Below are positions 1 through 59,548 of a stretch of DNA of 64,000 nt, in pieces. The stretch is from a virus. The stretch lies in the IMG/VR virus record IMGVR_UViG_3300038620_000086, positions 1-64,000 of that record; one strand, written 5' to 3'. How positions within the stretch are numbered: position 1 is the stretch's first letter; the number at the start of each line of letters is the position of its first letter. Position numbers and translations under genes: made by a program. The notes below the pieces were generated by a model. That model made no database searches, was not told the origin of the DNA, and was given only the letters and a program-made list of their open reading frames with translations.

Positions 1-3000
1 TCGATCACTATCATAATGAAGCTCTACATATTCTGCTCCTGAAGATTCGACGGTTCCAGCCGCTGTATAAGTATAGCCAGGTCTACTTTGAAGGGGACGG
101 CTGGATTTACCAACATCTACTTTCCCTCCAGAGACAACTGCAATTTGATCTTCAATGCCATATTCTTTGGCAAGCTTTCTTAGTTGTACACCGACACTTT
201 TTAGAGCTTGTTCTTCCGGAATACCCCCAGGAGTCGTTGCGCCACTTTCTCCTTTTGACCCACTATGTCCAATACCTATAACTAACTTACCTCCCTTGCT
301 CTCAGGTCTAGGAACTGCCTCCGACATTGTTTGTGTTTCCAGGTCAGATTTAGATAAGAATTGATCCAAAGCTCTAACAGTATCTTTCCTAGATTTATCC
401 AAACGAGCAAGATCAATATTTTGCTGGGCATATTCAGGGTTAGCCTCTGCTGCATCATGGAGGAGAACAATCTCTCCCTCAGCGTTACTAAGTCTGTCAA
501 GAATCTCTTTTGTACTAGTTGCTTTAAGGTAGTCCCTTGTGTCTACTGTCCAAAGGGCGGTGCTAAGTCCTTGCTCATTAGCAGCCTTTAGGGTTTCTTG
601 ATTCTGTCTACCATAGGGCGCCCTAAACCAGTTAATATCAACATCCTCGCCAACAATTCCTCTAATAACCTTCCTAGTTCTACGGATCTCTTTGATCTGC
701 TCTTCTTTACTCAGCTTCGACATGGGGCGGTGAGAATAGGAGTGAATTCCTATTTCATGTCCCTCCTCAACGATCTGTTTAACAAGTTCGGGATGTTTCT
801 TGGCTCTCTTACCAACAATGAAGAAGGTTGCCGTAGCATCATGCTTCTCTAAGACATCCAGAACTTTCTCAGTATATTGGGGACTAGGCCCATCGTCAAA
901 CGTTAGCGCGATCGTGCCGTCCTCCATTTTCTCTTCGGCACGTCGGTCAATGTTTTCTCGGGTTAGGTTTACAGGTTTCTCTCTCTTTCTGGTTGCCTGG
1001 TATTGTCTCTGTCTTTCACCTTTATAGAACCTTTCCCGCTCTCTAGCAAACCGTACCAACTCCTCTCTGGTATAGGCTTCCCCCTGTCCGTAAGGATCAC
1101 CAGGAAGCCCAGCCCAAATACCAGCTATTTTACGTCCTGACCTACCAGTAAGAAGTTCTCTATAATTTCCTTGCTTAGCTAATTCGTAAAGTCCCTCCTC
1201 TTTTAAATATTGAACGAATGCTCTATCTTGAGCTTTAGGGCTAATATTCTCATCCAAGCCGAATCGTTGGGCTGTTTCCCACATCCATTGATACTTACCA
1301 AAGGCTTCACTATTAAATCCTGCTGCTCGAATCTTTACATTCGGGTGACCTTCACTTAGATCTCCTTGGTAAGTTCTACCACCAAACATAGTACGATATC
1401 CACTTTCGTTCCAAGTCCCTTCGGCTAAACTGACCATGTCGGCAACGGCTCTAACATTGGGATGGATTCCCTTAGTCTTAACTATAGGCTTATCTCCTCC
1501 TCCAGAAGGAACCCACTCCGATAGCCAATCTTTAGCTGTTTGGTAAGCTTTGCTAGTAGCGCGACCTACCACTCGACCTACCGTTTTCGCAGCGTTAGTT
1601 AACCCCTCAACTACATTACTAGCGAACTCTTTAATGCGACCCAGTACCCCTAGATTTTCAGAAGGTTTTCTTTCTCTACCTGTCTCTCCTACGCTAAACA
1701 GATCAGAAACAGTAGAAGATAGACTTTCTGCAAACTTTTGTAGACTCTGTCTAGCCTGGCGGGTCTTTTCTTCATAGTTCTCAAGCTGCCTAACTTGACC
1801 GCGAGAGGACATGGATTTAACCTCGTAGTCCTCTATTCCTTCGCCTGACCAAGAGAATGATTGGAAATAACGAGTTAAAAAGTTTGGTTTGTTTCTATTT
1901 CTGTAGGAAACTTTAGCTGCACTTTCACCTATCTTTGCTCCGATATAAGAACCAGCAGATCCAATGGCTACACCAGCAGCTATTCCTAATCCTATAGCTG
2001 CCGCCGCTGGAAGAGCTAGAGCGCCAACTGCTGCGACTGCTAAAGTTCCAGCTATCCCACCGCCGATAGCAGTTCCTGTTAGTCTGCCGCCCTTAATAGC
2101 TCGTTTACGGTTATCACTTTTCATTCCTTGGTGGTATTCATAAAGTCCATAGACTCCCAGACTTGCTTCGATAAAATCTCCCACAAACCCTGCTGATCTA
2201 GCTATTTTTGCGACTTTTCCTATCCTACCTGGTCTTCTAAGTCCTATATTCTCCGTGTCATCTATATTCTCTGGTAGATGTTCAGGTATGTCAGGGATGT
2301 TCGATGTTCTAGATCTATTAGTGTTACTTACTACCCTTCGACTACCCTCATCAAACTCTGGATCTGTTGCCGTACTAGAGCTTCCTATCCTAGATTCTTT
2401 TGATGCGGGGTTTCCATAGTCTCCTCCGGACTGCCGTCTCCGTCGGCGAAGTTCAATAAGAGTTGCACCGAATCCCATCCCTAAACTTCCTAGAGCACTA
2501 CCCCACCCCGCTATACCATCAGACAATCTATCTGTATCGGCTCCGCGATCATATATTTGACTCCCTCGTTGTTCACCATATTGTCTTCCAAAGTGCCCAC
2601 CTATAAAACCACCAGCAATACCGGCTGCTAGTGGAGCTAAAAGTCCTCCTGAGAGAGCTGTTACTGCTAAAACAGAAGCACCTGCAAGTAGAGCAGCTCC
2701 AATGTTTCCATATAAATCCCCATAAGCTTTTCTGTAATGAGCTTCTCTAGAAGCGCGATCATCTAATTGTTTAACTCTTCGACGAGCACGATTGATAAAG
2801 TAAAGATCTATACCGAAAGAGGCGACGTCAGGGGCAACTTTAGAGAAACCCTTAGCCGTCCATCTTGCCGCTTTTCCTAAACCTTGTAGAATCCTATCTG
2901 GAAGTCCAACATCAGATAGCTTTCTTAAACCTCTATTTACTGAGGAAAGAGCCCTAGTAATAGACGATGGTCTTGCATCAGAAATAGATGTAGGTCTTCC

Positions 3001-6000
3001 TATCTCTTGAGTTATCTGAACTATTGTAGGAAGGCTTTTTGATCTACTGCTAGGTCTAAGAATCGGTTCTTCAAGAGGTTTGACTTGGAGGTCAGATGTA
3101 TTTACTTGATTTAACGGTATCCTTGAAGGATGATAGGAGTAGAAAGGGTGGAGTTGGTCAAATTTTGAGACAAAGGGCTTTCTAGCTCTAATCTCGTCAA
3201 AGCTTGCTCCTTCATCTAGCAGCATTTGAACTTTTCCTTTTCTCCGCTTTTGCCAGAATTTAGCCCTAAGGAATTTAGGAGAAAGAAGGTTTCCGAGACT
3301 CTTGTAACTTTCTCCCATATTCTTTGCAAAAGCTGTCCCCATAATGCCAGCATAACCAGCTCCTAAGATAGCAGGAAGAGAAAACCCAGAAGTGGCAATA
3401 GATAGTCCGGACAAAAGACCGGCTATAAGACTTCCAGATAAGGGGTTTACAAGACTTCCTATTCCAATCTTTAGAGACTGCAACGATACTCCAGCAGCTA
3501 TCCGACCAGAACGGTGTAGAATCCCTCTTGCACCAGACCCGAGAGTATTAGACAAGGATTCTAATAGGAGTCGGCTTCCAAAAAGTGCCCTTCCAAGATG
3601 TTTTCTTGCCCCAGTACCATAAAGTTCTCTTGATAGATCTTCTCCATAAAGTCTTGCTCCCAGATCACCTGGCAGGTCTTTTATATATCCAAGAAGGTCT
3701 TGTTTATCTAAACCCCCTAAAAGTAATTCTTTCCCACCATATCTTGTTACGCGGAAGAGACGGTTAAGCTTACGAAGTTGATATAGGTTTGGCTCTTCAG
3801 CCAAGGGAGCCGGATCTCCGAACCCACCTCTTCCAATCCCAGTAAAGAATTTACCAATAGCTCCTTTAATCGAATTACCTAGGTTTCTTATTGGTGTAGT
3901 CTTATCTCCTATAAATCTATCAATTCTTTCTTTTAGCCTAGCTAAGTCACCTCCTACCTTATTACCATATTTATCCCAAAGGGGTTTAACCGTTCTGTTC
4001 AAAAGAGGTCTAGTTATCTTGTTCCAAGCCAGATCCTTAACCTCAGAATAAAGTTGACCGATAAATCCACCCCGACCTCTCTGCAACTCTAGAGCTTGAA
4101 CATCGCTTAGGGCAATGCTAAAGATTTCATTTAGTCCTTTATCATCATCAACATTGTTGAGGCGATAGACATAACCGTGGGCATAAAGGTCACTCATTCT
4201 CTGCCTAACTTCTAGGGCATTCCTTAGAGTCTGAGATATTGGGTAGTTTCTTCGATAAGAGAAGTTATCTGCAACGCGATCGCCGCGGAAGTATTTCTCT
4301 TTAACAGCTCTACCCCGAACAGTTGTCGGAAATCCATAGAGTCCAGAATGGATTATATCCAAAGACCTTCCATACTGAGCAGTTTTCCTACGCCGTCTTT
4401 GCTGTTGCTGTTTCCAGTATTGAGAGGTATCCCCGTAGAAGTGGCGTTGATATCCCCAGGCTGTCTTCTTAGCCGAGGATCTCATTCTATTGTAAAGAGA
4501 GCTAGAAGCAGGCAAGAATATTTGGCTGAAGAACTGTAGAATGTCATTCTCGCTTTCTCTAGCTTTTCTGTATTGCTCGGCTATCCAGGGTCCAGTCACA
4601 TCCTCGAATAGGTTGAAATCGTCATCAACAAAAGGTAGGTAACTGGGTGACTCTGCTACCGTGTTAACAACAGACCCAATCGCTCTGGGAAGGAATCCAA
4701 AGTTAGAGGAGACCCAGTTGTAGATGTCAGACTCTTTATTCTTAAACCATTGGTTATTCTTTCTAATTTGGTTATAACCAAGATAGCTTGCAATTGTGAG
4801 CAAGCCAGCCCCACTATATCCTAGACCCATACCTCTTTTGAAGGCTTGGACTAGTAGAAATTCAGAGGCTAAGAATCCTGTCTCTTTCCAAAATAGCTTT
4901 TGACTCGCTTGCTTTTGGACAAAGTTGTCGTCTCTAAAAGAGTGAGCATAAAGAGATGCGCCTTCCAGCAATCCATAGCCTTGTTGTACATAGAAGGCAC
5001 GGTTCATGAAGTTAACGCCTTCTGAAAGAACTTTGGGAAGATCTTGTGGACGAACTTCTGTTTTAGGTTCTCCCTGCGGGGGTCTAGAACCTGCTCTTCG
5101 ACGAGCCCATTTCCGTTGTTCTTCTATAGACCGTTCGACTGCGAAACGTTCGGTGAACTCCTCGTCCATCGCTTGGGAAGGAATTAACTGAGACGTTTCT
5201 TCCAAGCGTGTAGCGATCTCATATCTAGCCGATTCAACGGCAATGTCTGGAGAAACATTTTGCCTCAACGATTGTTCTAAAGATTGTATAATCTGGTCAA
5301 TTAGAGTCTGTCTATTCCTACCTTCAATGATGTCATCAATGAATCGTTCTGCTCTTTGATCGGTTGTTAGAGCTTGGTATAAGGTTATAGTTTGTTTATC
5401 CCCTACAGGGATTTCTTTGTTTAGGGTTTCTAATAGATTACCTTTTAACGACTTTTTGTAGCGACCAAGGTGGTCTCTGACTTTGTCATAAAACTCTTCT
5501 TCGTCAATTGTTCCAGATCTAACCTGTTTGTAGAGTTCTCTAAACCGAACCGATAAAGATGTTCCGTGCATTCCCTCTAATCGGCGGTTATCAAAGCTAG
5601 AAGCAAAGATCTCATTGGTAGAACGACTCAAGAATTCCTCATATGCCTGGAAAAACTGTTCTTTGGCTTCCATACCGTAGCCAAGTCCCACTTTGTCAAA
5701 CTGACCTGGTTCGTTTGTCAATCCAGGAATCTTGACCATGTAGCGATCGCGAGAGAGTAATGCAATCCGCGGCGTTCCTCTTCCGCCAGACTGATCCCAC
5801 GATATACTGGGTTGATGTTTGACAAGGAATTTCTCTACATGACTAGCAATCCCTTCTATTTGACGTTGAATGTCTTTTCCCCTTCGATTCTCCCAAGCAG
5901 TGATACCGGAAGCCGTAAGTCGACCCGCCGACATAACTAAAGAGAAAGCTAGACTAGCGGCTGTGATCGTTCCAATAGCTGACCTCGTAAACATTAAGAG

Positions 6001-9000
6001 AGGGGCAGCAGGAGCCGATCCAACCCCAGTTAAGCCTTCAAACTTACCTCTGCGTATTCCAGCTCTTGGAGCACCAGAGGAACCGGTCGCTGCTACGAAC
6101 TGGTTGGTCAACTCTTGAAGACCTTCAATTTTGGTATAATAGGCAGTTCCCCGATTTCCTATATATTTCTCATAAGCTTTTTCTATTGTCTGTCCAAGAC
6201 CATAGAATCGATTGCCAATAGAGATATTAATTGGTACAAAGTTACCAGGAGAGATACCAAGCTCTTTCATTTTGTTTTCCTGTAGATACCTTTCTACAGC
6301 AATGGTAGTAGGACGCTTATTACTGAGATGCTCGGCATAAAAGCTACGAATAGCAAGGGCTCTAGACAAACTACTACTTGTAGCCTGAGCCGCCTCACTA
6401 CCACGGGTTTGAGTATAGTCAATCGAAGAGCCTCTAGGGGATAGAGTTCTTACTCGACTGACAACCTCTGATGGAGATAATTCCTTGTCCCCTTTAAGAA
6501 GTTGCTTGATGATCTCCTTATCTGTTTGTTTCAATCCTGAGAAACTAAGGGAGCGGATAGTGTACGAGAGATCTGCCGAAGATCCTTGAAACTGTGTATA
6601 ACCGGTAGAGGTTATGTCTCCAGAGGTATTTCTCAAGGTTTGACCATAAGAGAAAAAGTTAAGAAAGATGTTTGGATCATCCGCATATGCCCCAGAGTCG
6701 CTCAGGATATTAAATATGTCTAACTGCCCTATGAATTTATCAGTAAATTGTAGTAAGCGGTCACCAATTCCTCCTCGGTAGCCCCTACTTAGAATAGACT
6801 TAACTTTTTCTCTATCTTGAAGTTCCCCTACTGTATCTGGTCTTTCATATCCACCCATCCAAATTTGAAAGCCAGCAGATAAACCTGTTTCGTCACCAGC
6901 AAATAGTTCCTCTGCATCAAAGATTGCCCCGAGAAGCTGTCCAGTCCAGTATGTAGCTGCTATCCTGGAAGCGGCTACACCATGCCGACCAACAAACCTA
7001 GCATTATAGGTTGCCCCAGTTGGGGCTTTGCTAAAGCTAGTTCTAGTTCCTTCATATCTCGAAGTAACTCCTTTCTGTATCCGGTGGTAGAAACGGTTTG
7101 ATTCAGGAACTTTGATGCCTTTCCTAAAGAAAGCATCATCAATAATTTCAGGTCGGCTAAAGACGTTATAGCCACCAAACACTCCAGATAGAGCTGAACC
7201 GTAGATAGCTGTAAGAGTAGCTGTAGCTGAAACCCGAGCTGTTTTGTTTTCCTCTTCTAATCCCTCTCCAGTAAACCTAGAGGTTGTTATTCCCGCTTTA
7301 CGGTCTAAGAAGGCAGAAGAAGCTATCCAAGACAGTAAGAAGGGAGCGGCTCCTCTTATCGAAGGTCCTCGTCTAGTGAAAAACCTACCAACGCTCCTCC
7401 ACCCTGAACTATCAGGAGTTACACCAGCTACTGCTTTTTTGGTAGTATCTAGCATCAAGGCTGGTGCAGAAAGAACAGAAGCTCCAAAATCGGACACCAG
7501 TCGGTTAGCACTCCGAACACCACGACCCACAAGACTCTCTTTAGCTGCGGAAGGAATTATTTGATTAGCTATTCCTCCTAAAGCAGTGTAAGTTCCAACC
7601 TGCATTAGCAGGTTTTCGTAATCTGAATCCCTTACACCGGCAAATACTTCAGAGGGAAGTGTTCCTGCACGGTAACCTACACTGCCTAGCCACTCAGAAA
7701 AGGAGTCAATATCTCTTTCAGCCTCTGGTCGAACCGTTAACCTTTGAGCCACCGGAAACGTTGGCATAATCCCGCCGCCTAACAGAGGGAATAGCTGGAA
7801 GCCAAAGGTAAAGGTTTTTAGTTCCTCCTCTGGAATAGAGCGATTAGTCCACCCAATTTGAAAGACTGGGGTTGTAAACTGAGGCGTAATAGAGAAAGAC
7901 GTTTTGTATTGGGATTCAGTCGTCTTGAGTAATTTTTCTTTATATTTTCTAGCAAAGTCGTTAGCTGCCTTTTCCTCAAGGGTTTCCGGTAAAGGTGATA
8001 TATTAATCCGTTGTGCTGCTAAGTAAGAAAGCTCGTTAGACTCAAACCCAGAATCTTTAGACCAGTTCCAGATCGCAGCGATAGTAGAAGAAGCTAGTCT
8101 GGTTGCTGTCGTAGAAACAGCAAACCCAATCGAAGCCGCTAAAATGTTAAATCTGGCTCTACCAGCACTTTTAACGTTAGAACGAACTAAGCTTAGATCT
8201 GAATAGTAGTTTCTCGCCCATTGATTACTGCTAAGCTCTCCGGCTGACTTGTATCTAGGCGTTCCAGGTCTACCACCTCTTTGTATTTCCGATAAAGCCT
8301 CACCTATGGATATGTCTTGTTCCTGGGCGACTCGCCAAGCTTCTTCATAAACATCAAGTTTTTGCTTCTCGGCTCTACCTAAAGAATAATCGAAAGGATT
8401 TGTTTCAGCGGTGCTAAACTCTGGAAATAACCAACCCGCACTAAGTCCGCCTGTCAAACCTAGAAAACTTGTTATCAAAGGATGTAAGTCCCCTTCAATC
8501 TTCCTTATATGACTAGTGTCTCTAACCGGAGATTGAAAGGTGCCTTCTTCGAAATCCCACGGGGACTGAAAGTAACTTAACAAAGAAAGACCCCCATCTC
8601 CCAGAATTCCGTAAGAAAACAGGTAGTCCGCCCCGAAGATAGCTCCTACGCCTAGCATTGTTCTCCTGGCTTGGCGAATAGGGACACCGAGTAACTTTTT
8701 CTGGGGGTCAGTTTTTACATCAACACCGCCTGATGCGGGTGACTCAGACTTAGCTCGGAAGTAATTACTACGGAAGGAGAATTCTTTCTTAAGACCGGAG
8801 TACCGAGCAACCGGCGATATATCGTATTGGTACAGCTTTTTAAGGTCAGTAACTGGTCTTCCCTGGTTTACTGATTCTTCTATGCTTAACTGAGTTATTT
8901 CTCTGTCCAGTTCACTAACTTCCTTGGAGGTTCGGTAAAGTTTTTCTAGCTGTTTAATCTCCTGATCAGGGTCACTTATAAACCGACCGATTTGCATATA

Positions 9001-11568
9001 GATTTGTTCATAAGTCATTAGGAGGTCTTCTAGACCCCGACCAATTAGATCAGCTAGAGAAGCCTCTCTACTCATATCAACATTTGCGGCTTCTCGAACC
9101 GCTGGGATCCAATAAAGTAGGTTGGCAGGTACGTTTTGAGATACATCTTCCCAACGCTTAGCCATCTCTTGAATCCGGCGGCTGCCAACGCCAGAAACCC
9201 TGATCGTTCCATCTTGAGTAATAGCAACGTGAGGTTCTCTACCAACTTCACGTTGAAGAGTTGCTAGGGCACTTTCGACCTTATCTTTGTTTCCGGCGGA
9301 TACAGTTGTTATAACCCCTCCCAGTACATTTTCTATAACGTGCGACTGGAACCGACGAGCAATTCCTTGGAGTTTAACTAAGCTGAGGGAACTAGATTCG
9401 CTAGCAGTTCCTCCCTTAACGTCAAGACCAACATAGAGATTCTGAATTATCCCCATCAAGGGGTTTTTGCTTTCTCGGACGATTTGCCGGTTAAGTTCGT
9501 CCTCCATATGAGCTGAGGCTAGAGACAAACCTCTGAACAAACCGTAGCTTAAGAAAGAGGCAGATATAGCAGACACCGTCTCGGCTATTCCACCAAGACC
9601 TTTTTCAAATGGACCTGCGGGAAGCTCTTCAGGGTCATAATATTGACGGTCAGCAAATCCAGGAGAAGACTCGTAAAAACCCTCCCTCCTTCGCTGTTGT
9701 TCTTGGTAGTAGTAGTGAGCTGTGGCACGATCAAGTAGGTGTCCTAACGTTGCCACTCCTCCTTCTAAAAAAGTTTCATCTTTCTCGAAGGCGGGGGAAC
9801 GAAGTACATTAGGAAAAGATTGGTGAAGAAAACGATTCAATCTTTCTTTAAATGGAACTCGGTTAAGATCCTCATTTAATTGCTCATCTTCAAAAGGAGT
9901 GACCTTAGGTAGCGTTGGTGCCCCTCGAAACTGACTATAAAATGACGCTGGTAGCTCAGAAGGAATTTTTACTTCTTCTTTCAGATAGTGCCTAGAACCT
10001 TCAACCGGTTTAGGAAGAGCGCGGATCGTTTTAACGCTGTAGACTGAAGGGTGATCATACTCCCCGCTTCCATAGTCAACCGAATCAACATCACCAATTT
10101 CGTTGGATCCTGACTTAATAGTGGTTGGTACAGACCTATCTAATCTTTCTACTGAAACGTTATCTAAAGAGTCTAGCTTTCCTATTAAGTTCTGATGCTC
10201 CCCGTAAGTTTGCTGTACAATGGACATTAGTTTCCGAATGCTCTTAGGATCCATCTCTGTGGTAATCCTCAATGCCATTTCTTCGTGAGATTCTCCAACA
10301 AACCGACGGGTTGTTAGATAAGCAACATCAGTTCCTTTCTCGTTAATGTCTTCAACGAAATAAAGGTTGTAGTGAGGTGTATCAGTCTTGGTACGATCTG
10401 GTTTTAGGAATTCTGCTCCGGCTCTTTCTAGGCGACTAACGATCCTTTGTGTAGCCTCTTCGGGATCAACGTCTTTAGTTGCAATAGTAACGTCAGAACC
10501 AGTTCTTTCCTTAGCCTCTAGTAGCCCGACTATTTCCCGAAAATGCTCTTTTGCTTGTAGGTCTTTCTTAGATGGATCTTTACGATCCTCCATCTCATTA
10601 TACTGGAAGGACGCAGTCGCAATTGTTACGTCTCCACTGGAACGCCTAATGTCCTCTTTTAGAGACTCAAATATGACGTTTCCGCCGCCTTTTACAATAT
10701 CACCTTCATAAGACCTGTCCCTTTTCCCTTCAGCTTCCCTTTCGATCTGATTGTAATATTCTTCTACTTCTTTATGAACCTTAGGATGGGTTGTGTGGTA
10801 ATATATATCAGTTGTTTGCTTCGCCATCGACTCACCTTTTTGGTTAGTTCCAAATGGTTGAGTTACAAAGAAGGTATGTTCTTCTCCTCCTTTTTCACCG
10901 ATGATAAACTTGGAGTGAAGCAAACGAGGCTGAGATCCCCCTCCTTCGGTCAGTTCTCTCCCTTCGTAAGGTTTAAAGTTGCCGCCTTTACTATTCTGAA
11001 ACTCTATGGCATTGCGTTTAACATTAACCTCAGTTGGTTCAAAGTTAGTAACGTCAACAATGACCTCGGCGTCGGATGACCGTAGAAAGTCCGCCTCTGT
11101 TTGTGTTCCAAAGATCGACGTCGTCCACCAATTTCTAATAGAACCAAATGGTCCAATTTTCTGCTCCTTCTTACTTTGAGATTCAAAACTATATTCCACC
11201 TTTGTTTTAGCTCTAGGATCAGCAATAAACTGAACAGCTTTTATATTCTCAAGATCACCTGTTAACTCTTTTACCTTCTCCGGAGTAGTGATCCCAGCTT
11301 CGACATGAGAGGCACTTCCCTCAAACTTTAGATTAGACCTCCATTGTTGGTCTTCAACATGGGAAAACCTCTTTCCCAATGCAACCCGAATTTCTTGATC
11401 CGAGTTCCGAGCTTGACTTGCCACTCTAGAGATTAATTTTTCTGTGTAGTGGCTTTCCTTAGAAAGAGATATATTAACTGTCTCGCCAGAAGACAAGATG
11501 TCATCCTCTTGTTCTGTATACTGGCGATACCATTGTGGAGCCTTAGTTTCAAATCCAACGGGAGCCAT
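1..11568 (-). CDS. tape-measure-like giant with PLD-like, GH104, NodB and amidase domains (at least 3856 aa, C terminus off window)
   Basis: A single frame is open from ATG 11568 to position 1. Residues 1-420 look PLD-like, with HSK at 218-220 and a degenerate HYN at 399-401. Residues about 450-3300 are helical with hydrophobic Gly/Ala stretches (near 1137, 2717, 2957-3005 and 3150-3220), fitting a tape measure that is ejected into the envelope. A lambda-type GH104 muramidase follows (AEGTWNESGYRTMFGG at 3382-3397, WAGLPGDPYGQG at 3485-3496), then a NodB deacetylase (TFDDGPSP at 3556, HSYSH, FRAPYG, IVLLHDA at 3700) and an Amidase_3-like domain (IGIGHSGSKG at 3764, E...ELHYDSD at 3850). These would open peptidoglycan. 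The tape-measure call rests on size, helices and Gly-zippers. Confidence 0.85.
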   Translation of the reverse strand, partial: MAPVGFETKAPQWYRQYTEQEDDILSSGETVNISLSKESHYTEKLISRVASQARNSDQEIRVALGKRFSHVEDQQWRSNLKFEGSASHVEAGITTPEKVKELTGDLENIKAVQFIADPRAKTKVEYSFESQSKKEQKIGPFGSIRNWWTTSIFGTQTEADFLRSSDAEVIVDVTNFEPTEVNVKRNAIEFQNSKGGNFKPYEGRELTEGGGSQPRLLHSKFIIGEKGGEEHTFFVTQPFGTNQKGESMAKQTTDIYYHTTHPKVHKEVEEYYNQIEREAEGKRDRSYEGDIVKGGGNVIFESLKEDIRRSSGDVTIATASFQYNEMEDRKDPSKKDLQAKEHFREIVGLLEAKERTGSDVTIATKDVDPEEATQRIVSRLERAGAEFLKPDRTKTDTPHYNLYFVEDINEKGTDVAYLTTRRFVGESHEEMALRITTEMDPKSIRKLMSIVQQTYGEHQNLIGKLDSLDNVSVERLDRSVPTTIKSGSNEIGDVDSVDYGSGEYDHPSVYSVKTIRALPKPVEGSRHYLKEEVKIPSELPASFYSQFRGAPTLPKVTPFEDEQLNEDLNRVPFKERLNRFLHQSFPNVLRSPAFEKDETFLEGGVATLGHLLDRATAHYYYQEQQRRREGFYESSPGFADRQYYDPEELPAGPFEKGLGGIAETVSAISASFLSYGLFRGLSLASAHMEDELNRQIVRESKNPLMGIIQNLYVGLDVKGGTASESSSLSLVKLQGIARRFQSHVIENVLGGVITTVSAGNKDKVESALATLQREVGREPHVAITQDGTIRVSGVGSRRIQEMAKRWEDVSQNVPANLLYWIPAVREAANVDMSREASLADLIGRGLEDLLMTYEQIYMQIGRFISDPDQEIKQLEKLYRTSKEVSELDREITQLSIEESVNQGRPVTDLKKLYQYDISPVARYSGLKKEFSFRSNYFRAKSESPASGGVDVKTDPQKKLLGVPIRQARRTMLGVGAIFGADYLFSYGILGDGGLSLLSYFQSPWDFEEGTFQSPVRDTSHIRKIEGDLHPLITSFLGLTGGLSAGWLFPEFSTAETNPFDYSLGRAEKQKLDVYEEAWRVAQEQDISIGEALSEIQRGGRPGTPRYKSAGELSSNQWARNYYSDLSLVRSNVKSAGRARFNILAASIGFAVSTTATRLASSTIAAIWNWSKDSGFESNELSYLAAQRINISPLPETLEEKAANDFARKYKEKLLKTTESQYKTSFSITPQFTTPVFQIGWTNRSIPEEELKTFTFGFQLFPLLGGGIMPTFPVAQRLTVRPEAERDIDSFSEWLGSVGYRAGTLPSEVFAGVRDSDYENLLMQVGTYTALGGIANQIIPSAAKESLVGRGVRSANRLVSDFGASVLSAPALMLDTTKKAVAGVTPDSSGWRSVGRFFTRRGPSIRGAAPFLLSWIASSAFLDRKAGITTSRFTGEGLEEENKTARVSATATLTAIYGSALSGVFGGYNVFSRPEIIDDAFFRKGIKVPESNRFYHRIQKGVTSRYEGTRTSFSKAPTGATYNARFVGRHGVAASRIAATYWTGQLLGAIFDAEELFAGDETGLSAGFQIWMGGYERPDTVGELQDREKVKSILSRGYRGGIGDRLLQFTDKFIGQLDIFNILSDSGAYADDPNIFLNFFSYGQTLRNTSGDITSTGYTQFQGSSADLSYTIRSLSFSGLKQTDKEIIKQLLKGDKELSPSEVVSRVRTLSPRGSSIDYTQTRGSEAAQATSSSLSRALAIRSFYAEHLSNKRPTTIAVERYLQENKMKELGISPGNFVPINISIGNRFYGLGQTIEKAYEKYIGNRGTAYYTKIEGLQELTNQFVAATGSSGAPRAGIRRGKFEGLTGVGSAPAAPLLMFTRSAIGTITAASLAFSLVMSAGRLTASGITAWENRRGKDIQRQIEGIASHVEKFLVKHQPSISWDQSGGRGTPRIALLSRDRYMVKIPGLTNEPGQFDKVGLGYGMEAKEQFFQAYEEFLSRSTNEIFASSFDNRRLEGMHGTSLSVRFRELYKQVRSGTIDEEEFYDKVRDHLGRYKKSLKGNLLETLNKEIPVGDKQTITLYQALTTDQRAERFIDDIIEGRNRQTLIDQIIQSLEQSLRQNVSPDIAVESARYEIATRLEETSQLIPSQAMDEEFTERFAVERSIEEQRKWARRRAGSRPPQGEPKTEVRPQDLPKVLSEGVNFMNRAFYVQQGYGLLEGASLYAHSFRDDNFVQKQASQKLFWKETGFLASEFLLVQAFKRGMGLGYSGAGLLTIASYLGYNQIRKNNQWFKNKESDIYNWVSSNFGFLPRAIGSVVNTVAESPSYLPFVDDDFNLFEDVTGPWIAEQYRKARESENDILQFFSQIFLPASSSLYNRMRSSAKKTAWGYQRHFYGDTSQYWKQQQQRRRRKTAQYGRSLDIIHSGLYGFPTTVRGRAVKEKYFRGDRVADNFSYRRNYPISQTLRNALEVRQRMSDLYAHGYVYRLNNVDDDKGLNEIFSIALSDVQALELQRGRGGFIGQLYSEVKDLAWNKITRPLLNRTVKPLWDKYGNKVGGDLARLKERIDRFIGDKTTPIRNLGNSIKGAIGKFFTGIGRGGFGDPAPLAEEPNLYQLRKLNRLFRVTRYGGKELLLGGLDKQDLLGYIKDLPGDLGARLYGEDLSRELYGTGARKHLGRALFGSRLLLESLSNTLGSGARGILHRSGRIAAGVSLQSLKIGIGSLVNPLSGSLIAGLLSGLSIATSGFSLPAILGAGYAGIMGTAFAKNMGESYKSLGNLLSPKFLRAKFWQKRRKGKVQMLLDEGASFDEIRARKPFVSKFDQLHPFYSYHPSRIPLNQVNTSDLQVKPLEEPILRPSSRSKSLPTIVQITQEIGRPTSISDARPSSITRALSSVNRGLRKLSDVGLPDRILQGLGKAARWTAKGFSKVAPDVASFGIDLYFINRARRRVKQLDDRASREAHYRKAYGDLYGNIGAALLAGASVLAVTALSGGLLAPLAAGIAGGFIGGHFGRQYGEQRGSQIYDRGADTDRLSDGIAGWGSALGSLGMGFGATLIELRRRRRQSGGDYGNPASKESRIGSSSTATDPEFDEGSRRVVSNTNRSRTSNIPDIPEHLPENIDDTENIGLRRPGRIGKVAKIARSAGFVGDFIEASLGVYGLYEYHQGMKSDNRKRAIKGGRLTGTAIGGGIAGTLAVAAVGALALPAAAAIGLGIAAGVAIGSAGSYIGAKIGESAAKVSYRNRNKPNFLTRYFQSFSWSGEGIEDYEVKSMSSRGQVRQLENYEEKTRQARQSLQKFAESLSSTVSDLFSVGETGRERKPSENLGVLGRIKEFASNVVEGLTNAAKTVGRVVGRATSKAYQTAKDWLSEWVPSGGGDKPIVKTKGIHPNVRAVADMVSLAEGTWNESGYRTMFGGRTYQGDLSEGHPNVKIRAAGFNSEAFGKYQWMWETAQRFGLDENISPKAQDRAFVQYLKEEGLYELAKQGNYRELLTGRSGRKIAGIWAGLPGDPYGQGEAYTREELVRFARERERFYKGERQRQYQATRKREKPVNLTRENIDRRAEEKMEDGTIALTFDDGPSPQYTEKVLDVLEKHDATATFFIVGKRAKKHPELVKQIVEEGHEIGIHSYSHRPMSKLSKEEQIKEIRRTRKVIRGIVGEDVDINWFRAPYGRQNQETLKAANEQGLSTALWTVDTRDYLKATSTKEILDRLSNAEGEIVLLHDAAEANPEYAQQNIDLARLDKSRKDTVRALDQFLSKSDLETQTMSEAVPRPESKGGKLVIGIGHSGSKGESGATTPGGIPEEQALKSVGVQLRKLAKEYGIEDQIAVVSGGKVDVGKSSRPLQSRPGYTYTAAGTVESSGAEYVELHYDSDR

Positions 11569-12367
11569 ATAGACTATCGGTTTGGTCGCAAAGCAAAAGC
11601 TGGTCTAAAGAAACGGCTGGTTGATATTCTAAGTCAAAAGGATAGTCCGGCGGCGGAGACCAATCGGGCAAAAAGTTGAAGTAGTTCCAGCCTACTGACC
11701 ATCGTAACGTATTTAGGGGGTAGCTTCTTGCCGCGATCGATGCTAACCCGTAGAAGTCTCCAGGGAGGGGGATGGGAGCATAGGGCGGGTAGGGAACTAA
11801 AAGCCTGGTGATTCGGTGAATAGGAGTTTCTGGAACGACCCAATACTGAGTATCAATTGGCTCTCTTGGGTTGTCTTTGTGATAATATTCAACTTTATAG
11901 CGGTCAATCGGACTTGGGTGAGTCAGTACGCTTGGTGCTAGCTCCAACTTAAGATCACCATCTGCTGGAATAACTATGTTTCTCTTTTCTGGCAGGGGTT
12001 GTTCATAACCAAAGTAAGTGCTGTTTGGAGAGTAAATAGTGAGAAAATAGTCTGAGTGGTTAAACTTAGAGTCGGCTTCAGAGTTCTCAACTTTTATTGT
12101 CACCTCTTCGTAGCCTTCATCTAATAAGATGCTAGGAAGAGCAAATGTAATAGGGTCTAATCTTTTATACTCGAAAAGAGATCCAGAGAAGTCTTCAACG
12201 CCCTTCAAAACCTCGTTTTGTTCTTTCCATACTAAAGTAAACTCATCCTCATTTTCTAACTGTGGGATGCGAAAAATTAGACTTACATCTGGTTCTACTG
12301 TTAGTTCTATGGGAGATTCAACCTCAATAGAAGACTGGAACTTGATCCTAATAGGGGTCTTGTCCAA
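11549..12367 (-). CDS. beta-rich virion protein sharing a C-terminal fibre module (272 aa)
   Basis: Begins at TTG behind a perfect Shine-Dalgarno. Residues about 15-95 match the end of the 1256-aa spike protein: both have a Glu/Pro-rich strand, a FSG.F.Y.R/KRLD/IDNETF motif (DFSGSLFEYKRLDPITFALP against EFSGAFQYRRIDNETFELSP) and a following strand with EEVTI or ETTFL. The rest, residues 100-272, is beta with many Pro and Tyr (PYPPYAPIPLPGDFYG). It overlaps the tape-measure start by 20 nt. It may dock the tape-measure tip or hub by the same interface as the spike protein; this is inferred. Confidence 0.7.
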   Translation of the reverse strand: MDKTPIRIKFQSSIEVESPIELTVEPDVSLIFRIPQLENEDEFTLVWKEQNEVLKGVEDFSGSLFEYKRLDPITFALPSILLDEGYEEVTIKVENSEADSKFNHSDYFLTIYSPNSTYFGYEQPLPEKRNIVIPADGDLKLELAPSVLTHPSPIDRYKVEYYHKDNPREPIDTQYWVVPETPIHRITRLLVPYPPYAPIPLPGDFYGLASIAARSYPLNTLRWSVGWNYFNFLPDWSPPPDYPFDLEYQPAVSLDQLLLCDQTDSLYGSRWI

Positions 12368-14135
12368 AATATCCTCCTTTTCTTCGTCTTTGTAAGTAGT
12401 CTAATCGGGACTTTCCTCTTTCTAAGAAAGAGGGATCAGATCCTAAGAGTGAGGGGTCAAAGTTTTTATTGTCGGGCTGGTCTTCAGATTTCACCGACGA
12501 TGCAGATACAACCCTTGGAATGTCATCTGAGTTCTCATCTCCAGTTAAATGCCAGACCACTGAAGCGATCCCATCTGCTAAGTCTTTACTCCCATTCTTC
12601 GGGTGGTCGATTCGTGTATTGTTAATCAACTCTAGCTGGTTAAGCTCATCTTTAGCCAGTTCTTTAACCGGCGAATCCTTAGGTAAAATGACCCTACCCT
12701 CATTCAGCATCGTTTGAAGCTGTTCGTAGATCATTAGCTGAAACTTGCCGCCGAAAAACTTTGCCTCAGCGTTAATGCCCCACTGTCTAATGCGTTGGAT
12801 AGTCTCGGCATTCTGGTGATGGTCAGACGTCACCTTAAAGATTGGTCGATGTTGGTGAATGTCAAATAAACATTCCTGAACGTTACTAATAGATACTTGA
12901 TAGCCTGGGTCGGGTTGCCATGCCATAAGGACATCAATGGTAACGACTCTCAAGCCCTCTTCATTTCTCTCGGCATGACCAACTACTAAAGAGTAGGCAT
13001 CTCGAACAACAGCAGGGTCAATATGGGCAATAGAAGGGGTATCAGATTCAGTAACCTGTTTAATCCTTTTCTTAATTAGACCGCCCTTAGGCTCTTCGTC
13101 AGAATAGGTTACTTTAGAACGACCCCGGAAGCTCAACCTAATGCTGTCAGGGTTTAAAAAGCGGGTTTGTGGGGTAATCCGCTTTCCTTCAAACTCCAGA
13201 GCTGCTTTTAAAGGGTTCAGAGAATACTCACTTCGAACAACCGGGTTATCTCTAGCAGCGTGTTTAGGGTTGATATCCCAACTTTTTAGGCGAAAGCCAA
13301 TAAAAGAGCTTTCATCTTCGGCAACCTTTTCATAAAGTTGTTCGATAGCATCTCCTGGTTCCCAAGCCGAACTTATAGCAACCCTCTTCGCTTCTGACCC
13401 AAACGTCATACCACTCAAACCTACGTTGCTCCAAAGGTTCTGAGCGTTGCTATTCCCCTCAGAGTCAACGGCGAACCTAGCCACCTCGTCCATCACCATG
13501 CAGATAACGTTCTGTCCGACTTGGCTAGAGCTTTCGCTGTTTCCAGGATAAATATGGACATTTTTCTCTTCATGGTCAATTGACTCTTTTCTTACAAAAA
13601 CTTCACCTCTATCTATCATCCGTCTTAGTGGGCGGACTAGAGGGATCAAACCTCTAACATAAGAAAAGATCGTTTGCTTCGTCTGAGTAGCTGTCGTCGC
13701 GATCGCTAACAGTGAAATAGGAGAGTTCCCAGCTATACCATAGTGCCCCTGTGGGTTATCCATCATAACTAGCTTTAGGAATTCATAAGCCAATATAATG
13801 GAAGCAAGATTACTTTTACCTCCACGCCTCCCTGCTTCTAAAATGAGTCCCTGATATTCTTTGTCAGGATCCATTGGATCCCAAGTCGTTTTCTGATCGT
13901 AGCGCCACCTCTCAAGTATTTCTCTATCACCTTTATCTAGCTTGGCTCCATAAAGCACTTTTAGAACTAACAACTGTTCCTTACAAAGCTCAATCCCCCA
14001 TTTCTCCTGATCAATCTCATTTTCGACGAAATTAACAATATCGGTATTTAAACCCCAAGAAGAGGATGACTTGATACTAAAGGCTAAATCTTGGAAGAAG
14101 TTCGACTCGTCTATTGATTCCTGCTGTTTTGCCAT
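12348..14135 (-). CDS. terL: terminase large subunit (ATPase-nuclease)
   Basis: The DNA-packaging motor and genome-cutting nuclease. The N-terminal ATPase has Walker A AGRRGGKS at residues 101-108, Walker B ICMVMDE at 211-217 with the catalytic Glu, and the coupling motif SSA at 255-257. The C-terminal RNase H-like nuclease has Asp373 (HIDPAVVRDAYSLVVGH), Asp438 (KVTSDHHQ) and Asp518/521 (KDLADGIASV). The 595 aa length is normal. No small terminase, portal or capsid gene is in the window. The gene is placed between fibre genes and the tape measure, far from the usual head cluster. Stop and next gene overlap by 20 nt. Confidence 0.97.
   Translation of the reverse strand: MAKQQESIDESNFFQDLAFSIKSSSSWGLNTDIVNFVENEIDQEKWGIELCKEQLLVLKVLYGAKLDKGDREILERWRYDQKTTWDPMDPDKEYQGLILEAGRRGGKSNLASIILAYEFLKLVMMDNPQGHYGIAGNSPISLLAIATTATQTKQTIFSYVRGLIPLVRPLRRMIDRGEVFVRKESIDHEEKNVHIYPGNSESSSQVGQNVICMVMDEVARFAVDSEGNSNAQNLWSNVGLSGMTFGSEAKRVAISSAWEPGDAIEQLYEKVAEDESSFIGFRLKSWDINPKHAARDNPVVRSEYSLNPLKAALEFEGKRITPQTRFLNPDSIRLSFRGRSKVTYSDEEPKGGLIKKRIKQVTESDTPSIAHIDPAVVRDAYSLVVGHAERNEEGLRVVTIDVLMAWQPDPGYQVSISNVQECLFDIHQHRPIFKVTSDHHQNAETIQRIRQWGINAEAKFFGGKFQLMIYEQLQTMLNEGRVILPKDSPVKELAKDELNQLELINNTRIDHPKNGSKDLADGIASVVWHLTGDENSDDIPRVVSASSVKSEDQPDNKNFDPSLLGSDPSFLERGKSRLDYLQRRRKGGYFGQDPY
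12373..12379 (-). promoter_or_regulatory. Shine-Dalgarno deciding a TTG start
   Basis: AAGGAGG on the minus strand, five nucleotides before the TTG at 12367. It sits in the last codons of terL. Its quality makes TTG the likely initiation codon for the 272-aa protein despite the 20-nt overlap. Confidence 0.75.
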
Positions 14136-15035: not shown

Positions 15036-15040
15036 AATGC

Positions 15041-15082: not shown

Positions 15083-15107
15083 AAGATTACGTTTCAATCT
15101 TTTTTCT

Positions 15108-16379: not shown

Positions 16380-16385
16380 AGTTAG

Positions 16386-16661: not shown

Positions 16662-16668
16662 GCTAAGA

Positions 16669-16685: not shown

Positions 16686-16691
16686 GAGTAT

Positions 16692-43015: not shown

Positions 43016-45440
43016 TATTCAAATTTAATCTCGATCCAGATTTAATCCTTATAGGAGATTCAGAGATACCAGGATTAGTTAAAGTTATCCCAGTATTTGT
43101 ATCACGATTCCTATCGTTGTCCCTATAAAGAGAGGTCTTCGCTATTCGGTAATATAACTCGGCTGGCTTTATATCCTGAATCAAACTTGCTGCTTGTGGA
43201 TCTTCTCCCTCAGTTTCTATATACCCAAGCAATTGGTTACTATCGACTTTGGTGGTTGGACTATCAAGCGAACCTGGGTTAGCTGTAACTGTTTCATTGA
43301 GATGCTGTGATATTAAATCATTGGAGCTTCCCAATAGTTCAGATGAATCGCCTACATAATAGTTACTCTGAAGGTCAATTACCTCTGACAAATGGGAAGT
43401 CTTGCTTATAGAAAACAGATCTTCCCAAGAATTAGGATCAAACCAACGGGTTGTGATAGACCACCCTGTACTTGATTCGTTCACTTGGTATGGGTAAGGT
43501 TCTGGTGTTTTTACCTCAACTGAACCTCCAAGCAGACTACTTATTGTCTCTGATATCTCTTCGATGGTCTTGTTTTCTGGGCGAAGATATTGGCTAAGCA
43601 TCTGATTCCAAAAAGTATCAGAGGTTAATTTGGGTTTAGGAAGGTAGACTGAGGCATATTTAGCTAGAACAAACCCTACTGCTGATGAAATGTCTTGTCC
43701 TATCTCGACTAAAAGATATCGAAGAATAGAGGATAGAGTGCTGCTAACATTCGATAGCAATAAGTTAACTAAAGTGCTATCAGATCGCCTTAACACCTCG
43801 GGCTGGAACCAATAGCGCCCTACAGGAAGCATTCTAGTTGCTTCTTCATACAGTTGCCAGACAGCTAGTATAGCTTCCTCTGCTAGCAAAGGAAAAGGAG
43901 GTATATTATTGAAAACTTGCTGAGTCGTGTCCCGAAGGGATATAGCACTTTGGGTTACTAAATTAGGGATCTCATCAGGATAGTGATAAAGACCGTCTGT
44001 CTGATTGGTTGGGAGGTCATAAATAGGGCTTTCTTCCAGAGTGTTGCCAGACGAATCTTGGAAGTCTGGATAGATATTCTGTAGAAACCCTTGTCCAAAG
44101 ATGATCATTCGATATTCTGAGTCATCTTTTTCGTCCTCTCTTTTCTCTTGTAACCGGGAGATAAAGCCCCTGATGATCTCTACTGTGTCTGAGTTAGATA
44201 ACGAAAAATAAATCTGCCATATAGCTCTAGCTACTGGAACCCTTAAACTATCAGTATCTGACGCATCAACCATCTGTAACTGTTCAGCGGGTTGAGCCGG
44301 GAGTTCTGCTAACTTTAAATAAAGTCTAGCAGCAGTAGCATGATTTTCGACAGAGTAATCTAACTGAAGGGCTTTAGTTAGGTAGATAGAAGAGAGGAAG
44401 CTTGCTTCTAAACTTTCACTCGAAAGAAAGAAGCCTTCGGCTGATAAAACCTCCGAGCTAAACTGGTTCCCACCGTCGGTTGCCGCCGAAAGTAGTAAAT
44501 TTAGCTGCTCAACAACGAACTTTAACTTCTTATCGAGTTTTATACCTCCGTCTAGGGTTTTTATCTCTGAAAGCGGTTTATCATAGAAATAGCTTAATCC
44601 GTCCAGAATAGCCAATCCTAAAAAAGCGTTTTGAGCAGTCCACACTTCTTCGGAAACAGCCCGGTCTAAACGAGGCAATCGATAAGGAAATCCTGGAATA
44701 GCTTCATCTCCTGGTTCATAGCCAACATCAGACTCGATGGCGCCAACCTTCTCAATGTAATAATCGCTGATAGTGTTAAGTAGTCCGACTAAACTCTCTT
44801 CGTCATTCCCCGCGATCGCGAGATAGATTCCATGAGCTACAGTCTCTGGATCGGAGAAACGAAATGATCCATAAAGATGAGGAGTAGGCAATGCCGTGTA
44901 GTACAAACCCCTTATCTCTTTCTCTGTAACCTTGGAATTAGAGCCTTGAACTCTAATCGTGCTATGAGCCGCTCGAACTGTCCTAATCTCCTGAACCGTT
45001 GGAGAGGTAGATGAATAATATTGATATTTATAAAGACCAGGAATCAGCCCTGAGGTTGGTTGACTTGTTTTCTGATGAATCGTGACTCGGGAAAGAACCC
45101 CATCACTCAAGAATACGTAGGGATTATCTAGCGTCACTAAAGAGGGATCTGAAACAGGATAACGGTTAAGTAAAAAGGAACGGTTGTCGTCCGAGTGAAA
45201 GTAAACCTCGTCTATTTCTATCCGGTCACTGATCTTAGGATTCTCTGAAATAAGAATCGGGTCACTAACCTTAATTGGTCTCTTTAGACTATTAGCTTCG
45301 CCAGAAATAGACTTTTGATGGAAAGTGTCAAGGTATAAGTCATACCCCGAACTACTAACTCTGTATTCAGGCTCGGGTCGTCGAGCGGGGCTAAAATCAA
45401 ATCGGTTAAAGAAGTTTTTCTGGCTAGAGTTGAGTGACAT
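43008..45440 (-). CDS. baseplate-associated protein, alpha-helical core (810 aa)
   Basis: Starts 17 nt inside the Baseplate_J gene. In many contractile systems this slot holds gpI/gp7, which carries the fibres, but the sequence is not recognisably gpI. Residues 1-200 are beta-rich. Residues about 200-620 are regularly helical with paired amphipathic helices (WTAQNAFLGLAILDGLSYF; ATAARLYLKLAELPAQ; VARAIWQIYFSLSNSD), resembling an alpha/alpha toroid or solenoid. The C-terminal 190 residues are Ser/Asn/Thr-rich beta. The fibre adaptor gene follows with an 8-nt overlap, so a role linking wedges to fibres is plausible. No catalytic motif is identified. Confidence 0.55.
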   Translation of the reverse strand: MSLNSSQKNFFNRFDFSPARRPEPEYRVSSSGYDLYLDTFHQKSISGEANSLKRPIKVSDPILISENPKISDRIEIDEVYFHSDDNRSFLLNRYPVSDPSLVTLDNPYVFLSDGVLSRVTIHQKTSQPTSGLIPGLYKYQYYSSTSPTVQEIRTVRAAHSTIRVQGSNSKVTEKEIRGLYYTALPTPHLYGSFRFSDPETVAHGIYLAIAGNDEESLVGLLNTISDYYIEKVGAIESDVGYEPGDEAIPGFPYRLPRLDRAVSEEVWTAQNAFLGLAILDGLSYFYDKPLSEIKTLDGGIKLDKKLKFVVEQLNLLLSAATDGGNQFSSEVLSAEGFFLSSESLEASFLSSIYLTKALQLDYSVENHATAARLYLKLAELPAQPAEQLQMVDASDTDSLRVPVARAIWQIYFSLSNSDTVEIIRGFISRLQEKREDEKDDSEYRMIIFGQGFLQNIYPDFQDSSGNTLEESPIYDLPTNQTDGLYHYPDEIPNLVTQSAISLRDTTQQVFNNIPPFPLLAEEAILAVWQLYEEATRMLPVGRYWFQPEVLRRSDSTLVNLLLSNVSSTLSSILRYLLVEIGQDISSAVGFVLAKYASVYLPKPKLTSDTFWNQMLSQYLRPENKTIEEISETISSLLGGSVEVKTPEPYPYQVNESSTGWSITTRWFDPNSWEDLFSISKTSHLSEVIDLQSNYYVGDSSELLGSSNDLISQHLNETVTANPGSLDSPTTKVDSNQLLGYIETEGEDPQAASLIQDIKPAELYYRIAKTSLYRDNDRNRDTNTGITLTNPGISESPIRIKSGSRLNLNNA

Positions 45441-46500
45441 AAGTTATATTAACTCGGCTGGGATAAATAAGGTCAGAAGAGGCTATTTCAATAGAGGTTT
45501 TAGGGATAGATACCCTAAGGTCTTCATAGATAGATTTCAGCGATTCTTCTAAGTCACTAGGGTTAAATATATTATTTGGTTCTAGATTCCGGGAGTAATC
45601 GAATACTAAGGCTCTAATGTAGTCACTTAACTGGGACTGATCGATCTCTGGAGTTGCTGAAACAATAATCTCGACATCAATGCTAACTCTTCTAGCTTGT
45701 TTAACGGTAACTGTAACACCGGGGCTCACCCAGGATCGAATCTCGTTAGCAATAGCCTCTTGGTCTGCTTCTGTAAACGAAGAAAATGGATCAACAAGAA
45801 CAACTAAGACTCCACCGCCAGAAGGTTCAACTCTTACATTGGCGATGGATTCTCGACTTAGCAGCTTTTGTTCAATCTCTTTTGATGTAGTTCTTTCTCG
45901 GTTTTGGGCAGATCGAATCAACCGAAGCCGAAAGGATTCATCCGTCTCTGGTTCTTTACCCCCTTGTATAGAACCACAAACTTTTCCATCAATTGTTTCC
46001 CCGGATCCTACTCTAATCTCTAACTCTGGAAACTGGGTAGCAACGAGTCTAGTACCGCTTCCGAGATTATACTCTCTCCCCGGCTGATCAGCCTCAATAG
46101 GAACGGCTGTTTTGACTTTTGGGGCTAATGATTTAGAAGAATTAGAGGGAAGGTTAGTTCGGTAAAGAAGGTTTGTCTCTGGATCAGCAATTACCGAATT
46201 GTTTGGCAGATTTACTATCTGGTTGGAAGTGTTTTCTACCACAACGTGACCTTTAGCTCTAGTTGCCTTACGGCGGTCTAGCCAGTATCCCTTACGGTCT
46301 AGACTCTCACCTGTAGCAGATATTAGAAAACTGTCTTTCTCAACCTGATCAACTTTTTGTTCAAGACTTAATTGAGAAGCAGCGAAAGAGCGGACTAGCG
46401 CTCGAACAACTGACCCCTCAGAGAGGTCAATTTCCAAATTTGACCCAGACTGCATTGCTGCTGCTATTTCCTCTTCGATTTCATTGATTGGTCTACTCAA
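45424..46500 (-). CDS. baseplate protein J family (gp6-like)
   Basis: Baseplate_J proteins form the ring of the baseplate wedge. The typical N terminus with an acidic helix (INEIEEEIAAAMQSG, then DLSEGSVVRALVRSFA) is followed by 'ATGESLDRKGYWLDRRKATR', a close match to the family signature. Also seen are the 'G..I.gG..pEtDesfR.Rl' segment (SIQGGKEPETDESFRLRLI) and the 'V..V.V.p..GGv.V' block around residue 215. The length of 358 aa is normal. Initiation is at TTG behind AGGAGAG. The adjacent gp25-like gene is the expected partner. Confidence 0.93.
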   Translation of the reverse strand: MSRPINEIEEEIAAAMQSGSNLEIDLSEGSVVRALVRSFAASQLSLEQKVDQVEKDSFLISATGESLDRKGYWLDRRKATRAKGHVVVENTSNQIVNLPNNSVIADPETNLLYRTNLPSNSSKSLAPKVKTAVPIEADQPGREYNLGSGTRLVATQFPELEIRVGSGETIDGKVCGSIQGGKEPETDESFRLRLIRSAQNRERTTSKEIEQKLLSRESIANVRVEPSGGGVLVVLVDPFSSFTEADQEAIANEIRSWVSPGVTVTVKQARRVSIDVEIIVSATPEIDQSQLSDYIRALVFDYSRNLEPNNIFNPSDLEESLKSIYEDLRVSIPKTSIEIASSDLIYPSRVNITYVTQL

Positions 46501-59300: not shown

Positions 59301-59548
59301 GCTCTAGAAACTACAAAGTCTCCTAAACCATTGTCTAAAGCAGCTCGAATGGCTACTGCACTAGCTTTGTCGTCATCGCCAAAGAAGTTGGCTAAATCGC
59401 TGGCACTTCTAACCCTGGCAACAGGGGGACCTTTTCTAAATTTTCCAGCTATTCCGGTTCCAGTCCTCCAGGGTTTCTGGGGACGGGTTGCCGTTGTAGT
59501 TGTTTCAGTTGTCGTAACTGATGGAAAGGCGTTGCGTTGTCTTTGCAT
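56372..59548 (-). CDS. contractile tail sheath protein (1058 aa)
   Basis: The protein forms the contractile outer sheath of the tail. The N terminus after a Thr-rich lead has the typical sheath opening: an aromatic/Gly segment (GTGIAGKFRKGPPVARVRS), then a 'vtS..dl...FG' block (SASDLANFFGDDD) and a strand with VVSRAIA. The C terminus, roughly residues 880-1058, is the conserved sheath domain (YVSVVRVYDQIMMDLSQRL; LEYLKSQGWITGF; ILNVQIDLDPAIPADHI). At 1058 residues it is much longer than the 400-700 aa usual for sheath proteins; residues about 120-620 appear to be inserted beta domains likely exposed on the tail surface. An AG-rich ribosome site (AAAAAGGAGAGAGGG) lies in the 34-nt gap upstream. 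The tube gene follows at once, as expected. Confidence 0.9.
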   Translation of the reverse strand: MQRQRNAFPSVTTTETTTTATRPQKPWRTGTGIAGKFRKGPPVARVRSASDLANFFGDDDKASAVAIRAALDNGLGDFVVSRAIASDTPANVGFRLVTAGTPQQSYVDATGDVATQGITLLTEYVSNVAKLTPSTSNISVRKEDLNSDRSGSAPFGSENFETHLEGQGTLNLRSELFLQGSSSAVDVGSLDHLQIYNPALPNGNKLLGSSNAGNLQQGDRVTLIAETNNDDAIENIHPGVSLTLDGDEFGSSSAFESEATVMSPAEEYFNELSGIEEVRYRFAIQITVGTGTIDISADWIDAASSEVSIKSPTEDKYVFSYSWDNLTTASFPKKDDSEGSYITGMFPSYNSDRVDGFVIFDTSTNTWNGVDIYNFFIYYDLSRPIQLSLQKPIRLVSFLFRPDSEISGGDAGFTPAQLKMMDESGETYDRSIRNSYIPSKFAVRIDQAMVYVGKSFLSGSNVEALSPGTPYKEVINQLFDQLNSKESSQDIFTDFSVEETYDVSQDRTLVDATFETRATGDGANNMVIKVALTGDKSLVDTSENPKDTENPPTDGSGDEVWGYPDDAVPGSDIGDDTIPEDWDTVDNDYVLVQTVNSENLTFDKAKKGPDRAETVLYSESGDPLVLVRAISPGKTDIEVSIINGRAGLFDLIVVDRDAEEYLDEPLVERLNLSNENALTTSNGIYPGSRPSKLVRAYYLPKFYQAGKKLQNDMASSYPIRSGPNLGTFLSQVNTINQASETPSVSTLAVGSDFVTDVKLTGGSEGSEGNEPSDSDYVEAVKRLESYDLVTISTPDYPFRGTTDNPVIAELIEQANRSDSFNGYRQAVLQLPKRLPLSRVKSIVPSSLNNERVRLLAGYVTYGRRPSLGFNNVEGIGFYLGWVNSRSPHISPAALSRSDAINGPTTTNIPSEKEYLDALTRNGIEGIYFDRSSQRLRFLNGQTTSTDIEGQYVSVVRVYDQIMMDLSQRLAFVRSQPLTDDLMRRVAGIVDTRLEYLKSQGWITGFRPTVADRRNNPPEDLDRGILNVQIDLDPAIPADHIILNFLRQRTRTLSLQTQV

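Follow-up and report, generated by a model that had tools for sequence, protein, structure and literature searches.

Wall-cutting virion and tape measure proteins are already known, and so are virion-borne polysaccharide deacetylases. Lytic tape measures from mycobacteriophage TM4, Staphylococcus phage phiIPLA35 and phage T5 are cited in PMC6116005, under titles that speak of a peptidoglycan-hydrolase motif, a muramidase domain or muralytic activity. Deacetylases on the virus particle are represented by the turret protein of HFTV1 and by Acinetobacter phage Aristophanes, as cited in PMC12494034. The N4-type vRNAP is injected and has no cysteine, a lack that the authors link to its entry via the tail and the periplasm; the LUZ7-type vRNAP, with 3,398 aa, is also injected and cysteine-free (PMC2784036, PMC3715699).

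The DNA analysed here, called the window throughout, comprises bases 1-64000 of a viral contig of 72,840 bp. One minus-strand frame (1-11568) starts with an ATG at 11568, encodes at least 3856 aa and has met no stop by window position 1, itself base 1 of the contig. The preliminary description had proposed to extend this frame to the left, which is impossible since the contig itself ends there. It had also named a stop or frameshift between the enzyme domains and the upstream part of the protein as an objection; there is none, and 3856 continuous codons join the two.

Gene map, orthology and cysteine content

The features on which the argument rests are the following.

1..11568, minus strand: giant open reading frame, at least 3856 aa, 0 Cys, open at its 3' end, predicted orthologue of Ma-LMM01 gp120
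10159..10971, minus strand: predicted N-terminal domain of the PLD superfamily, residues 200-470 (AlphaFold and Foldseek)
2470..11223, minus strand: conserved core, residues 116-3033, about 2900 in all (hhalign alignment to the profile of the IMG/VR family)
2638-2694, minus strand: second hydrophobic glycine-rich segment, residues 2959-2977 (Kyte-Doolittle scan)
1987..2043, minus strand: glycine-rich hydrophobic segment, residues 3176-3194 (Kyte-Doolittle scan)
1051..1452, minus strand: GH104 muramidase domain, residues 3373-3506, predicted catalytic Glu E3383 (matches to lambda lysozyme and phrog_90)
451..930, minus strand: NodB/CE4 polysaccharide deacetylase domain, residues 3547-3706, five motifs (Pfam and PDB matches)
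4..294, minus strand: N-terminal part of a probable Amidase_3-like domain, residues 3759-3855, cut by the contig end, putative ligands H3768, E3785 and H3851
11549..12367, minus strand: small ORF separating terminase from giant; in position it corresponds to Ma-LMM01 gp119 (synteny)
12348..14135, minus strand: terminase large subunit, 31.6% identical to terminases of the Ma-LMM01 group
45424..46500, minus strand: baseplate wedge (phrog_6, 8.5e-34)
56372..59548, minus strand: tail sheath (phrog_30392 and phrog_23, about 1e-20)

The sheath gene at 56372..59548 implies a contractile tail. Two further minus-strand ORFs (40122-42614 and 50036-53806) match a 'tail sheath' family, phrog_15433. Elsewhere in the window, a minus-strand ORF at 20023-32412 encodes 4129 aa with 31 cysteines; it has no PHROG match, lacks predicted membrane segments and resembles in sequence a surface protein rich in repeats.

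In its N-terminal part the giant is similar to a hypothetical protein encoded by Microcystis phages, and the order terminase, small ORF, giant is that of gp118-gp119-gp120 in Ma-LMM01; in the Microcoleus phage My-WqHQDG two small ORFs separate terminase and giant. Sequence and synteny together identify the window giant as the predicted orthologue of Ma-LMM01 gp120, within a family of contractile-tailed cyanophages. A giant frame was found downstream of the terminase in nearly all of the 34 terminase relatives examined that had enough DNA there, and those followed to their stop encode 2898-5815 aa. The known hosts of the relatives are Microcystis (Ma-LMM01) and Microcoleus (My-WqHQDG), which bears out the cyanobacterial link made in the preliminary description. 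Its further idea, that three different activities would suit the thick cyanobacterial peptidoglycan, is a conjecture.

The window giant has no cysteine in 3856 residues, against 18.9 expected from the rest of the window (P about 6e-9), and thus combines very great length with a complete lack of this residue, as a cysteine-free ejected virion protein would. The enzyme array is itself cysteine-free. The giants of the family, up to 5815 aa, are essentially all without cysteine; in one of them (L054) a lone cysteine precedes the first Met. The tape measure gpH of lambda has none in 853 residues, and the count is 0-1 in GH104-bearing giants akin to annotated tape measures. The absence of cysteine speaks for ejection of the predicted protein. 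It does not discriminate between a tape measure and a head-packaged protein, since N4 vRNAP, lambda gpH and the GH104-bearing giants are all cysteine-poor. These last giants belong to a separate viral group (L058-L077, for example L060 3308-13207); the complete ones have about 3300-3400 aa and are similar to annotated tape measure proteins.

Wall-acting domains and their exchange among relatives

The preliminary description had placed a muramidase, a deacetylase and an amidase in series at 153-1450. The location holds, and the array is slightly wider than described, reaching from 4 to 1452. The GH104 segment (residues 3373-3506) matches phage lambda lysozyme (1am7/3d3d, E=1.4e-9) and the endolysin family phrog_90 (3e-19), and E3383 of the giant, in SLAEGT, is aligned with E19, the catalytic Glu of lambda R. 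Pfam-A gave no match for this segment, so that of the three families expected from a domain search GH104 was recovered through lambda lysozyme instead. PF01522 was recovered directly at residues 3547-3669 (562-930) with E=1.7e-40 and 138 bits against a cut-off of 23.1, and all five NodB motifs, with the D-H-H metal ligands among them, are present (TFDDGP, HSYSH, RAPYG, VDTRDY and LLHD). The earlier reading of intact NodB motifs and an intact GH104 Glu was thus correct, and for these two predicted domains a chance match is excluded. The strong PDB matches of the NodB domain include peptidoglycan GlcNAc/MurNAc deacetylases, but xylan and chitin deacetylases too; its inferred substrate would be peptidoglycan or sheath sugars. 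The closest cellular relative of the domain, in a cyanobacterial MAG (L086), is 39% identical and has 2 Cys, which fits host origin. This is no proof of cysteine loss, as several other NodB proteins lack cysteine as well.

The third domain is less clear, with only about 97 residues (3759-3855) before the contig end. Its Amidase_3 (PF01520) score of 14.8 bits (E=0.03) stays below the cut-off of 27, as does that of a full-length relative in L048 (13.6 bits). The stretch matches the endolysin family phrog_435 at 1.5e-4. A profile of three sequences (the window stretch, the full-length relative in L048 and Ma-LMM01 gp094) found the endolysin structure 3qay, an Amidase_3 enzyme, at E=0.0015, with H3768, E3785 and H3851 aligned as Zn ligands. 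The catalytic Glu would fall past the contig end; its candidate in the L048 relative lies in ILEMRA. An AlphaFold model of the full-length relative amidase, made with two sequences, was set aside at pLDDT 37. The assignment as Amidase_3-like is therefore weak, probable and not certain, and of the three wall-acting domains proposed in series on one protein, GH104 and NodB are confirmed and the amidase is probable. An M23 domain was looked for in the window giant and not found.

Close relatives of the giant's C-terminus were found in viral contigs neither with a single-sequence query nor with the amidase pair. A query with the GH104-NodB pair returned one true homologue (G004) besides the separate group of GH104-bearing giants. 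In a collection of 50,697 phage records, none covered 80% of the array in one place.

The IMG/VR family profile aligned with residues 116-3033 of the giant at an hhalign probability of 100 (E 5.7e-42 for one target). The deeper-core alignment was too diverged to serve as a seed for the collection search, and the core of the G004 giant (L047) found no match in the phage database. At the N-terminus, the AlphaFold model has a mean pLDDT of 54.6, rising above 80 in parts of the second lobe, and matches PPK/PLD/PLD3 folds (best Foldseek value 8e-8). Pfam gave no N-terminal match in the window giant, but PLDc_2 is clear at this place in other members (1e-9 to 7e-19), the relatives L053 and L048 exceeding its cut-off. 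The superfamily has two HxK(x)4D motifs, and both catalytic His are invariant in a 10-sequence alignment. The first motif is intact in the window giant (H218-S-K220); the second reads H399-Y-N, without the Lys, and this member may therefore no longer be capable of PLD-type catalysis. Two relatives, L047 and L031, carry instead a staphylococcal-nuclease (SNase) domain in this place (3e-15 and 1e-14). That unrelated nuclease-type folds replace one another here suggests nucleic-acid cleavage as the conserved role of the N-terminus, at least where the motifs are intact.

The C-terminal end varies too. The G004 giant (G004:C1:36000-55999, 2496-18287, minus strand; 5264 aa, cysteine-free) has, in series, a weak M23, GH104, NodB, Amidase_2, a GH24 lysozyme and Endonuclease_NS, so that GH104 followed by NodB recurs in the homologous place on an independent contig. 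The G010 giant (4460 aa) carries GH104, M23 and an Amidase_3-like domain, and those of G003, G006 and G017 show weak M23 and GH104-like matches at the C-terminus. No wall-acting array was seen in a Pfam scan of Ma-LMM01 gp120 or the My-WqHQDG giant WOL31340. As judged from these domain matches, the array is exchangeable among gp120-type giants.

Where the giant lacks an array, similar enzymes are encoded elsewhere. In Ma-LMM01, gp094 is annotated as a baseplate protein and has an Amidase_3-like part and 3 Cys, and gp095, a separate protein among the baseplate genes, combines GH104-like and M23 parts with 0 Cys. Separate proteins also bear such enzymes in G015 and My-WqHQDG. Copies on the giant have 0 Cys, and hub-borne copies mostly 2-5 (5 in the gp095-like protein of G015; 5, 3, 4 and 2 in WOL31302/03/05/07), gp095 being the exception. 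In phages with the array on the giant, GH104 or M23 matches are confined to it. The Pfam scan of the hub-region ORFs of the window found no recognisable lytic domain, and in G000 the gp095 query matched the giant only, with no M23. The array on the giant thus appears to replace lysins that other phages keep on baseplate-hub proteins, a pattern rather than a proof since the contigs are incomplete. The preliminary description had mentioned neither this exchange between hub proteins and giant nor the longer arrays of relatives, the PLD-like N-terminal domain or the lack of cysteine.

Candidate tape measure or other putative ejected protein

The giant is probably an ejected virion protein of a contractile-tailed phage of the Ma-LMM01 group, housed like a tape measure in the tail (or else in the head) and fitted with an exchangeable wall-penetration array. 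The C-terminal array would leave the tail tip first and be the first part to meet the wall. There the muramidase would cleave the glycan strand, the amidase would strip the stem peptides and the deacetylase would take N-acetyl groups off peptidoglycan or sheath sugars, which might either clear an acetylated barrier or limit further cutting. Jointly these enzymes would open a local hole in the wall; the core with its hydrophobic segments would then help the DNA across the membranes, and the N-terminal domain may have an intracellular role.

The array occupies the very end of the contig, where an assembly chimaera could have joined it wrongly to a phage gene. This is scarcely credible: on independent contigs the 5264-aa homologue of G004 carries GH104 and then NodB, the 4460-aa homologue of G010 carries GH104, M23 and an Amidase_3-like domain, the GC content is flat along the giant gene (about 0.42-0.46), and the array is cysteine-free like the rest of the protein. 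We consider it very unlikely, if somewhat less so, that the domains form an endolysin for the release of progeny, fused to a structural gene or misread together with it. The GH104 and amidase parts do match PHROG families labelled endolysin, but the frame runs stop-free into a core of 3000 residues, independent relatives have the array at the same position, and the endolysin annotations of Ma-LMM01 fall on separate genes.

The identity as tape measure, proposed in the preliminary description, requires more caution. The giant is a good candidate, being long and cysteine-free, and its case as the tape measure is unproven because Ma-LMM01-type phages have a second, essentially cysteine-free giant, gp080 (L082:7701-18389, minus strand; also L166 2119-13284, L167 7634-19000 and L168 7393-18999), with a weak PLD-like match at its N-terminus. 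The view of gp120 as the sole candidate by length was dropped when gp080 was found to share this lack. Tape measures have a ratio of about 0.15 nm per residue. The tail of MaMV-DH01 measures 230-260 nm (PMC9927357), and among the Ma-LMM01 proteins examined only gp080 and gp120 are long and cysteine-poor enough for such a tail; gp120 is longer than that tail would need, which counts against the preferred reading, as does its content of the helix-favouring residues KERALQ (38%, vs 50% in lambda gpH). Comparison with known tape measures gave only a match to the tail-associated lysin family phrog_1047 (2e-4, residues 2946-3271). Rather than between tail tube and baseplate genes, where a tape measure gene is expected, the giant gene follows the terminase, with about 44 kb between it and the sheath gene. 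This place next to the terminase would also suit a head-packaged protein that is ejected before the DNA, like T7 gp16 or N4 vRNAP, the gp080-type giant being then the tape measure. Such an arrangement would agree with the two essentially cysteine-free giants of Ma-LMM01, both with PLD-type N-terminal regions, with lengths that vary widely (2898-5815 aa) and with a nuclease-type module, as expected of a protein that acts in the cell. We nevertheless hold it to be rather unlikely: the array matches tail lysins in position and content, sister phages carry such enzymes on hub-region proteins, which points to action at the tail tip, and gp080 is likewise encoded outside the interval from tube to baseplate.

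Going beyond ejection as such, we tentatively propose, as a possibility short of an even chance, that gp120-type giants are a delivery platform of cyanophages: cysteine-free proteins of ~3000-5800 residues that would cross the tail unfolded. One terminus would bear an exchangeable nuclease, and the other, the first to reach the wall, an exchangeable set of as many as six enzymes in series. Lysins would move between hub and platform and lose their cysteines on joining it.

Comparison with known systems

We found no published description of a giant virion protein that unites muramidase, deacetylase and amidase. The tape measures of TM4, phiIPLA35 and T5, as cited in PMC6116005, resemble the window giant as long virion proteins with wall-cutting activity; a deacetylase goes unmentioned for them in what that source cites, whereas the window giant carries NodB. 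HFTV1 and Aristophanes have a deacetylase-type domain on the virus particle, as cited in PMC12494034, a trait that the window giant, as a predicted virion protein, would share. The deacetylase of HFTV1 is a turret protein with a proposed surface-glycan target and, unlike the window giant, has no muramidase-amidase array (PMC12494034). Lambda lysozyme R is a GH104 enzyme like the window domain, but a free-standing endolysin and not part of a giant protein. The N4-type vRNAP has the giant size and the lack of cysteine in common with the window giant, which differs in carrying a wall-acting array in place of an RNA polymerase, no RNA polymerase family being found in a Pfam scan of its whole length.

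The nearest counterparts are Ma-LMM01 gp120 (YP_851134.1; phrog_29513) and My-WqHQDG WOL31340, which agree with the window giant in the place after the terminase, zero cysteine, a PLD-type N-terminus and an alignable core. On the reading given here, one of the largest genes that lack annotation in Microcystis phages would gain a function. Ma-LMM01 and My-WqHQDG differ from the window phage in having their lysins on proteins of their own, encoded among the tail genes. The family is in this respect a natural experiment, with similar enzymes borne by hub-region proteins in some phages and by the giant, in cysteine-free copies, in others, so that the exclusion of cysteine from proteins that travel through the tail becomes directly testable.
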